Part shown: positions 29,118 to 32,374 of the stretch, piece by piece
Layout of the letters: each line of letters opens with the position of its first letter
Position numbering within the stretch: the first letter of the stretch is position 1
Assembly: GCA_948468385.1 (NCBI GenBank)
Contig: CAOKHZ010000028.1
Coordinates: 1 to 57,941, forward strand
DNA length: 57,941 nucleotides
DNA from: an uncultured Faecalicatena sp.
GTDB lineage: Bacteria > Bacillota > Clostridia > Lachnospirales > Lachnospiraceae
Reading direction: 5' to 3'
The notes under the pieces: generated by a model
Told to the model about the DNA's origin: nothing
Seen by the model: the letters and a program-made list of their open reading frames with translations, nothing else
Databases searched by the model: none
Program-made: the position numbers and the translations under genes

Positions 29118-29355
29118 ATGGAAAACTTATATCTGGAAGATATTACGCTTTCAAATTATAGAAAATTCAATCAAAGTACGTTTGGACTGAATCGCCATAT
29201 GAATGTGTTGATTGGGAAAAACGCGGCCGGGAAAACAACAATACTAGAAGCGGTCAATGTAATGTTAGGAGCTTATAGGATTAGACGATATCACGGATGA
29301 GGAGTATTCGGGACAGAGTATAGAAGATATTACCGAGGATATCATATTTGTTTAG
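29118..29355 (+). pseudogene. Remnant of an AAA ATPase gene (RecF/OLD-like N-terminus)
   Basis: The start MENLYLEDITLSNYRKFNQS with AAGGAGAGC upstream, followed by MNVLIGKNAAGKTTILEAVN, is a clean N-terminus of a RecF/SMC/OLD-like ATPase with Walker A GKNAAGKTT. After NVMLGAY the frame is lost near 29275; one base out, it continues as GLDDITDEEYSGQS and then meets a stop at 29353. Further open sequence in that frame (MKDGKVYDNRMTG) suggests that decayed gene material extends towards 29450. The nuclease or effector part is gone. Relatives act in DNA repair or phage defence, so this may be the scar of an accessory gene. Confidence 0.65.
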
Positions 29356-29455
29356 ATTATGATTGCAATGAAAGATGGTAAGGTGTATGATAACCGAATG
29401 ACTGGTATTAGTTGTTCGGTTCATTTTGTGAAAAAAGACGGAAAGGGGTATTTCG

Positions 29456-32374
29456 ATGGGGGACACGTCCGGTAAGAAAGCAAAAAAGAAGATTTGTGCC
29501 GCACTGTTGGCCCATGTCGACGCGGGCAAGACCACGCTGTCAGAGGCAATGCTTTACTTGTCTGGCAGTATTCGAAAGTTGGGACGGGTGGACAACCAGG
29601 ACGCGTTTTTGGATACCTTTGAGTTGGAGCGTGAGCGGGGCATCACCATTTTTTCCAAGCAGGCGCGTTTTTCGACGGACGGGATGGACGTGACGCTGCT
29701 TGACACGCCGGGACATGTGGATTTTTCGGCCGAGATGGAACGTACCCTGCAGGTGCTTGATTATGCGGTTTTGATTATTAGCGGAGCCGATGGCGTGCAG
29801 GCGCACACGCAGACGCTGTGGAGGCTTTTGAAACGATACAAGATTCCGGTCTTTTTGTTTGTCAACAAGATGGATCAGGAGAAGGCCGACAAAGAAAGGT
29901 TGCTTTTTGAGTTGAAGCAACGGCTGGATGAAAATTGTGTGGATTTCAGCATGGATGCAGAGGCGGGAAGTAAGGCACAAGATGGCGAGTGGCCGCTTGG
30001 TGTATCAGGGGCAGAGGAATTTCTGGAAAGCGTCGCCATGTGTGACGAGGAGCTTTTGGAAACGTATTTGGAGAGCGGCCGGTTGGAGCGGGAGGAAGTG
30101 GCGAAGCGGATTGCAGGGCGAAAGCTCTTCCCGTGCTATTTTGGATCGGCGTTGAAAGTGTTCGGCGTGGAGGAATTGATACGGGGATTGGAAATGTATA
30201 CATTGCCCAAGTCATATCCGGATTCATTCGGAGCCAAGGTTTATAAAATCGCCCGGGACGCGCAAGGGACAAGGCTTACCTATCTGAAGGTGACGGGAGG
30301 GACGCTGAAAGTGAAGGACGTGCCGGTTGATGGGGAGAAGGTCAACCAGATACGTATGTATTCCGGGGCAAAATATGAGACGGTGAACGAGGTGAAGGCG
30401 GGAGAGGTCTGCGCCGTCACCGGACTTGGCAAGACGTTTCCCGGACAAGGGTTTGGTATCGAGCCAAAATCTGCCCTTCCCGTATTGGAGCCGGTTTTGG
30501 GATACCGTTTGGAACTGCCGCCGGACTGTGAGGTGCACCAGATGCTTTTAAAGCTGCGTCAACTGGAGGAAGAAGAGCCGCTTTTACACATTGTCTGGGA
30601 GGAAGCCCTGGGTGAAATCCATGCACAGTTGATGGGCGAGATACAAATCGAAGTGTTGAAGCGTTTGATTTGGGAGCGGTTTGGCGTGCGGGTGGAGTTT
30701 GGCGTTGGAAGCATTATATATAAAGAGACGATTGCCGCGCCGGTGGAAGGAGTGGGGCACTTTGAGCCGCTTCGTCACTATGCGGAGGTTCATCTTGTGT
30801 TAGAACCCGGCGAGGTGGGCAGCGGACTTGTATTTTTATCGGATTGCAACGAGGACGTGCTTGACCGCAATTGGCAGCGGTTGGTTTTGACTCATTTGGA
30901 AGAAAAAGAACATAAGGGGGTTCTGACCGGTTCGGCCATCACGGACATGCGCGTCACGCTGGTTTCCGGGCGCGCCCATCAAAAGCATACGGAGGGCGGT
31001 GACTTCAGGCAGGCGACGTACCGTGCCGTGCGGCAGGGGCTTATGAAGGCTAAAAGCGTACTGTTAGAGCCATATTACGAATTTCGTCTGGAGGTGCCGA
31101 CGGAGATGGTCGGTCGGGCACTTGCCGACTTACAGCGGATGAACGCAGATTTCGCGCCGCCTTCCGTGTCGGGAGAATTTTCCGTCCTGACCGGAGAAGC
31201 TCCGGTATCCGTCATGCAAGGATACCAGACGGAAGTGATTTCCTACACGAAAGGGAGGGGAAGGATTCTCTGTTCCCTCGAAGGCTACCGGCCTTGTAAG
31301 AACGCGGAGGAGGTCGTTGAAAAAATCGGCTATGACCCGGAGCGGGACACGGAAAATTTGTCGGATTCCGTTTTTTGTTCCCATGGGGCGGGTTTTGTGG
31401 TAAAATGGGACGAAGTGGAGCAATATATGCATGTGGAAGAATATCTGGGGCGTGCGAAAGAGAACGGGGCGGAGCAGGAACTCTGGAGTTTTTCCGGAAT
31501 GGAAGCCACTGGCCTTACTGAGACAAGTTCGAATGGTTTCGTCCGAACGGGTTCGTCCAAGGCGCGGTCTTCGGGCATTGTATTGTCCGAGGAGGACGAA
31601 CGGGAAATCGAACGGATGGCGTTAATCTCTCGGAAAAAGCGCGAGCAGGCATGCAAAAGGGAAATAAACGCCCGAAAAACGCGGGGCGAGGAGCCGAAAG
31701 CTCGAAGGAACGGCAAAGAGAGCGTGCATGACAAGGCAAATTTGGAGCGCAAGGAGAGTGTGTATCGTGTGGCGAAGATGTACGGCAAGGAAGATTTCGG
31801 GCGCAAGGAGTATCTTCTGGTGGACGGCTACAACATTATTTTCGCGTGGGAATCTCTTCGGGAGTTGGCGGAAGAAAACATGGATGCGGCCCGCGGCAGG
31901 CTGATGGACGTTCTTTGTAATTACCAAGGCATGAAAAAATGTAACCTGATTCTCGTGTTCGACGCGTACAAGCTGGAAGGATTTCCCGGAGAGGTGATAC
32001 AGTACCACAATATCCACGTCGTTTATACGAAGGAGGCGGAGACCGCCGACCGGTATATCGAGAAAGTGGCACATGAAATCGGCCGCAAGTACCATGTGAC
32101 GGTGGCGACCTCGGACGGGACGGAGCAGGTGATTATCCGAGGGCAGGGGTGCTACCTGATGTCCGCGCGGGAACTGGAGGAGGAAGTGGAGCTCCTCAAT
32201 CAGGAAGTTCGCAAGGAACATTTGGACAAGCCGACACGGGATAAAAATTATTTGTTTCATTATTTGAAGGAAGAGGACGCGAGCCATATGGAAGACATCA
32301 GGTTGGGACGCGAACGGGGACGAGTAGGCAGGGAAAAACATGGAGGGCAAAGAGAAGATGGGCGAGATGCGTGA
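29456..32374 (+). CDS. TetM-like ribosomal GTPase fused to a C-terminal YacP/Rae1-type NYN nuclease domain
   Basis: A 972-residue two-part protein. Residues 1-640 are an EF-G-like GTPase of the TetM/TetO ribosomal-protection group: G1 AHVDAGKTT, switch [14 protein letters not shown]3 [10 protein letters not shown]4 NKMD, then the later domains with [12 protein letters not shown] and ending in [21 protein letters not shown] basic linker (about 720-780, rich in Lys/Arg/Glu) leads to residues 780-950, a NYN/PIN-like domain: [67 protein letters not shown]. That domain matches YacP (Rae1), a ribosome-associated endonuclease in Bacillus. AAAGGGG precedes the ATG. proA starts inside its end. A role in rescuing or silencing ribosomes is inference. 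Confidence 0.88.

Follow-up and report, generated by a model that had tools for sequence, protein, structure and literature searches.

What is the function of a protein that carries, in a single chain, a translational GTPase and an endonuclease of the Rae1/YacP type? The question is raised by a gene in contig CAOKHZ010000028.1 of an uncultured Faecalicatena sp. (GCA_948468385.1), of which we analysed a stretch of 57,941 nucleotides (nt), here called the window. The gene (29456..32374, + strand, like all features below) is an open reading frame (ORF) of 972 amino acids (aa) with an ATG start and no internal stops, in which Pfam domains identify an EF-G/TetM-type GTPase, followed by a linker and a Rae1/YacP NYN endonuclease domain. 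We propose that its product is probably a ribosome-directed endonuclease of messenger RNA (mRNA), that is, a Rae1 delivered by a GTPase to the A site of stalled ribosomes, where it would feed rescue by transfer-messenger RNA (tmRNA). The basis of this proposal is the two-part anatomy of the protein, a nuclease whose conserved residues are intact, a GTPase with an EF-G-type fold and G motifs, one apparent origin of the fusion, the displacement of rae1, and the lack of a TetM tip. According to the literature, Rae1 attacks mRNA in the A site, where its cut clears the path for tmRNA (PMC12320835; here and below, the literature is cited from extracts of the papers); tmRNA is present in the window's genome.

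The fusion seems to replace the stand-alone rae1 gene. In a family sample of 150 genomes, one per genus, 135 had a YacP domain: in 120 it lay within one open frame of at least 700 aa, in 9 it stood alone, and in 6 the gene was cut, whether by a contig end, a frame break or a split. A class sample of 196 Clostridia genomes comprised 67 fused, 3 cut and 58 stand-alone cases and 68 genomes without the domain; both samples include the window's genome. The GTPase match was also found in all 120 and all 67 fused genomes. Together, the samples hold 186 distinct fused genomes, and a second, stand-alone rae1 was confirmed in none of them, against joint genomes expected by chance of about 21 (class) and 7.6 (family), with cut genes counted as fused in both samples. 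A preliminary description of this DNA had suggested surveying genomes for the same fusion and for separate yacP genes, and it is the apparent mutual exclusion of the two that this survey brought out. In the window's genome, the single YacP domain is that of the fusion.

Gene order was compared as well. An RlmB-type ORF lies directly upstream at 24 of 29 stand-alone rae1 loci, most of which also have mrnC-, cysS- and sigH-type neighbours, names that we assign by the gene order of B. subtilis. No RlmB-type ORF occurred within the stretch examined at any of 40 fused loci, and the fusion is thus not a gene of the stand-alone kind that follows rlmB. All twelve fused family genomes tested had the order cysS-mrnC-rlmB and then sigH, with no rae1 match after rlmB; in the window's genome (contig 41, locus L164) cysS-mrnC-rlmB-sigH is kept and rae1 is missing between rlmB and sigH. 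Four of six fused genomes outside the family had rlmB and then sigH without rae1, and two had no sigH within reach. Rae1 directly followed rlmB in control genome G024, and rae1 was equally missing beside rlmB in four genomes that have no YacP domain at all. In B. subtilis, rae1 lies next to yacO (rlmB) and is transcribed together with it (PMC6613710). This displacement of rae1 supports the reading of the fusion as a ribosome-docking cutter of the message.

GTPase and NYN domain lay in a single ORF at all 40 fused loci opened for context, and since many independent genomes carry this architecture as an uninterrupted frame, the 972-aa frame is no assembly join and the fusion described preliminarily is real. 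Its hosts include Lachnospiraceae, Oscillospiraceae, Ruminococcus flavefaciens, Intestinimonas, Anaerovorax, Fusibacter and Butyrivibrio. In a phylum sample, 13 of 199 genomes passed a strict GTPase threshold, with 12 long frames (857-980 aa; counted by GTPase match and length only, and including the window's genome and two others of Clostridia) and one of the length of the unfused relatives introduced below. Two fused copies were found in genome G282, which is 61% complete. In G042 (locus L091, 5513-8198), the fusion appears as two ORFs that overlap, one of 711 aa for the GTPase with the linker and one of 190 aa for the NYN domain, either by natural fission or by sequencing error, and in G140 (locus L089) the GTPase half is in two frames. 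Twelve Clostridioides difficile plasmid records (~97-150 kb) contain a gene annotated as an NYN domain protein with 37% identity to the window's domain.

The GTPase half has the five-domain layout (G, II, III, IV, V) of the Tet type, with domain III matched under its cut-off. The G domain (residues 15-246, 29498..30193) matches PF00009 (GTP_EFTU, 7e-50) and carries the G motifs. Domains II and III (residues 260-416, 30233..30703) were assigned by fold and by PF22042 (EF-G_D2, residues 260-327) and PF14492 (EFG_III, residues 346-416, 22.9 bits for a cut-off of 27). Domain IV, the presumed A-site probe, spans residues 419-533 (30710..31054, PF03764, EFG_IV), and domain V residues 535-616 (31058..31303, PF00679, EFG_C), after which the alignment defines a C-terminal module, SVFCxxG...YMH (residues 617-659, 31304..31432). 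The nuclease domain (residues 787-949, 31814..32302) matches PF05991 (NYN_YacP) at 4.6e-53, with 180.1 bits for a curated cut-off of 24.6, and its model lies within 1.8 Å of B. subtilis Rae1 (PDB 5mq8, 5mq9). D790, N793, D836, D865 and D887, which we take to be the catalytic residues, are kept in all 45 aligned fused rows and are invariant also in 69 rows. Domain search and structure prediction, both suggested in the preliminary description, thus recovered the GTPase and NYN_YacP domains and a Rae1 fold, with the G motifs and three NYN blocks where it had placed them and no acidic NYN residue lost in the alignment.

The linker (residues 660-785, 31433..31810) is largely predicted to be disordered, with predicted local distance difference test (pLDDT) values below 50 at residues 674-711 and 723-781. 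It had been described as basic, which holds for its second half (net charge +10 over residues 724-785) but not for the whole (+4 over residues 660-785) or for the family (median +0.5 in the 100 of 114 rows parsable by pattern, the window counted twice). Model and alignment place a low-confidence short helix at residues 712-723 (31589..31624), which includes the conserved E717. The linker measures 64-207 residues in parsed relatives, half of which carry (D/E)ELxxIFxRTYG at this place, unlike the window's protein. At the other end of the nuclease, a profile built from 29 stand-alone domains, which favours its own builders, gave full-length matches in 29/29 of these, while 50 of 113 fused domains ended within its first 90%. 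An arginine near the nuclease end, adjoining B. subtilis R166 in the alignment, is conserved in 27/29 stand-alone domains, and R occurs in 20/45 fused rows. A change of R166 to proline in B. subtilis Rae1 is among the suppressor alleles read as loss-of-function (PMC6613710). The C-terminal divergence may therefore mark a lost targeting element made redundant by the GTPase. From Rae1/YacP of B. subtilis (PF05991) the fusion differs by its GTPase partner, its locus away from rlmB and this C-terminal end.

In a GTPase tree of 66 rows (a quick tree without bootstrap, with a tool warning on long branches among distant rows), the 45 fused rows formed one clade (Shimodaira-Hasegawa-like approximate likelihood ratio test, SH-aLRT, 99). 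Its sister (89) was a group of 15 unfused GTPases of ~650 aa that we label T2 (loci L184-L199), and two classical Tet rows fell far from both. T2 GTPases resemble the fusion in the domain IV tip loops and the SVFCxxG...YMH module, with 42-49% identity to the window's protein over the matched part, but end before the linker and lack the NYN domain. GHxEPxxHYAE (loop I), KHTxxxDF (loop III) and the SVFCxxG module were present in 44, 45 and 45 of 45 fused rows and in 15, 15 and 14 of 15 T2 rows; the window's fusion carries these T2-clade loops and the module, which was not seen in two Tet controls. T2 are distinct translational GTPases, with two copies in G270. An NYN tree was built from 74 rows. 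The 20 stand-alone domains from other families lay on one side (95/94), and fused and stand-alone domains of the window's family on the other, with fused rows of other families placed among the family rows. A single fused NYN clade was not rejected (approximately unbiased test, p 0.89) and scored higher than the tree as drawn. The simplest history would be a single fusion event within or close to this family, followed by spread into other families and loss of the free gene. The stand-alone rae1 of G020 (locus L084) is nested among fused copies in this tree, perhaps as a later fission.

An EF-G/TetM-shaped factor binds the same site as Rae1. We propose that GTPase and nuclease act in sequence. 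In its GTP form the protein would bind a paused or stalled ribosome whose A site is vacant and place domain IV in the decoding centre; GTP hydrolysis would then release domain IV from the A site. The NYN domain, tethered by the flexible linker, would then enter and cut the mRNA, and the truncated message would become a tmRNA substrate or be degraded. The fusion would thus do the job of Rae1 and, in addition, select the state of the ribosome in a GTP-dependent way. The steps that we infer are ribosome binding, gating by GTP, mRNA as the substrate and hand-over to tmRNA. A more specific version, which we put forward tentatively, is that ribosomes with an empty A site are sampled by the GTPase, which would hydrolyse GTP only on persistently stalled ones and then hand the decoding centre to the tethered nuclease, so that one chain would decide, cut and prepare for tmRNA.

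Several points count against such a rescue endonuclease. Domain IV and Rae1 should both fill the A site, which makes the sequence given above a guess. The unconstrained NYN tree needs three changes between fused and stand-alone states, not one. T2 is also found in 5 genomes that lack a YacP domain altogether, and among the class genomes it is not commoner where rae1 stands alone (5/58 with stand-alone rae1, 5/68 without any YacP domain, Fisher p 1.0), so an obligatory partnership of GTPase and Rae1 is not borne out. Both halves are missing from 15 of 150 family genomes, which makes the function dispensable. The co-occurrence statistics ignore shared ancestry, and there are possible exceptions to exclusivity, namely a contig-edge fragment in G039, a 22-bit contig-edge match in G076 and a second match of 21 bits, below the cut-off, in G285.

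Among the alternatives, the one that fares best, though we consider it unlikely, is that the halves keep two independent functions, one as a back-up factor resembling EF-G (a role that free T2 may also have) and the other as an unchanged Rae1, and that fusion couples only their expression. Both halves do exist free, T2 in 15 genomes (5 of the family, 10 of the class), 10 of which have a stand-alone rae1, and the linker that joins them is long and mostly disordered, but the conserved E717 within it and the C-terminal divergence of the fused Rae1 are not what independence would lead one to expect. The free genes are also missing where the fusion is present: rae1 is displaced, and free T2 was found in 0 of 126 fused family genomes (cut genes included) against 5 of 24 others.

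It is more doubtful still that the protein provides Tet-type ribosomal protection against tetracycline or another A-site drug with an RNase added, as suggested in Atkinson 2015 (PMC4342817). The best curated relative is indeed the tet_protect model, but the fusion scores 436.4 against its cut-off of 775, and 297.7/1100 for Tet M/W, 254.4/1420 for M, 281.1/1425 for Q and 327.5/900 for OtrA (NCBIfam). It reaches 300 for the EF-G model TIGR00484 (cut-off 659.4). No Tet or EF-G cut-off was reached among the matches listed (25 of 35 families), and one T2 protein scanned was likewise below them. Tet(M) and Tet(O) (PDB 3j9y, 4v6v) share the five-domain layout and ~28-33% identity with the fusion, but differ in tip loops I and III, belong to a separate clade and lack the C-terminal module and the NYN domain. 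EF-G shares the layout and the tip histidine and is nearest in domain IV (5e-9, against 9e-5 for TetO and 6e-4 for TetM among solved structures), yet identity is ~28-30% and the fusion scores far below the EF-G cut-off.

Loop III (residues 505-518, 30968..31009) is unlike that of TetM, and its His508 aligns with the EF-G tip histidine. The TetM-type motif SPxSTPxDF was found in 0/113 fused and 0/15 T2 proteins and in 2/2 Tet controls, and GxxHxKHT, with the EF-G-like histidine, in 110/113 and 15/15. For loop I we rely on the 45 fused rows given above; a further 68 fused rows were partly fetched by the loop I stretch, so their 68/68 is discounted, and the two sets may share genomes. Loop III is the tetracycline-displacing part of TetM (PMC4750697, PMC7456112), in which Pro509 overlaps tetracycline (PMC7456112); some loop III changes are tolerated in TetM (PMC4750697), so the loop is not decisive. 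An Agathobacter rectalis plasmid encodes a relative with the annotation TetM/TetW/TetO/TetS family, and the fusion apparently crossed family boundaries; both speak for a resistance gene. However, unlike Tet(M) and Tet(O), the fusion is present in most family genomes, at least nine of which also have a 643-644 aa protein (33% identity) with the length and identity of classical Tet rows, for example on contig 24 of G047 and contig 1 of G138 and of G035. The GTPase is therefore probably not a tetracycline protein. Of the preliminary label "TetM-like", the five-domain layout stands and the Tet identity does not; similarly, of docking on a stalled or drug-bound ribosome with RNA cleavage, message cutting is best supported, and the drug-bound part sits poorly with the tip, the cut-offs and the clade.

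A factor-site GTPase lies near 23S ribosomal RNA (rRNA), and the ancestral neighbours mrnC and rlmB presumably encode rRNA enzymes. The idea that the nuclease cuts structural RNA on the ribosome, in maturation or damage of rRNA or transfer RNA (tRNA), which also agrees with an rRNA/tRNA maturation role for YacP-like NYN domains cited in PMC4342817, is nonetheless the least probable, given that for the B. subtilis relative the described target is mRNA in the A site (PMC12320835, PMC6613710) and that we found no direct support for an rRNA substrate.

The architecture itself is known. Atkinson 2015 (PMC4342817) reported the acquisition of a YacP-like NYN domain by Tet proteins in ten clostridial species, filed these proteins as Tet and considered a resistance mechanism with RNase activity or a role as an rRNA RNase. 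The preliminary statement that no functional description was known agrees with our literature search, which found no functional study of the fusion (the main Rae1 papers were outside its coverage, and a mention there is possible). What is new here is the replacement of rae1, the non-Tet tip, the T2 sister clade and the C-terminal divergence of the fused nuclease, and hence the reading of a known architecture as a widespread GTPase-borne replacement of Rae1.

At the locus itself, a likely ribosome-binding site, AAAGGGG (29442..29448, by eye), lies 7 nt before the ATG. Downstream, the gene overlaps proA by 17 or 35 nt according to which proA start is chosen; a GGAGGG fits the one at the ATG at 32358. 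This overlap had been taken as a sign of stable expression, a view that we do not retain: no generally recurring neighbour was found across the 40 fused loci, with sharing only among a few close relatives, so the overlap is uninformative about the family. Upstream, at 29118-29300 (+), lies the remnant of an ATPase-like gene, by eye ~60 codons with a P-loop and then a stop.

For annotation, a fusion common in Clostridia, with a relative labelled as a tetracycline resistance gene, may inflate resistome counts, and in the at least nine family genomes mentioned above automatic annotation may count two resistance genes, one of which is not of that kind. The fusion bears on how Rae1 selects ribosomes, and hints that Rae1 action is coupled to a factor-binding step. 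If the protein is the ribosome-directed endonuclease proposed here, an mRNA-cutting member would be added to the translational GTPases, and if its cutting is gated by GTP, many Clostridia would run a dedicated GTPase-driven system of ribosome rescue and mRNA surveillance instead of free Rae1.
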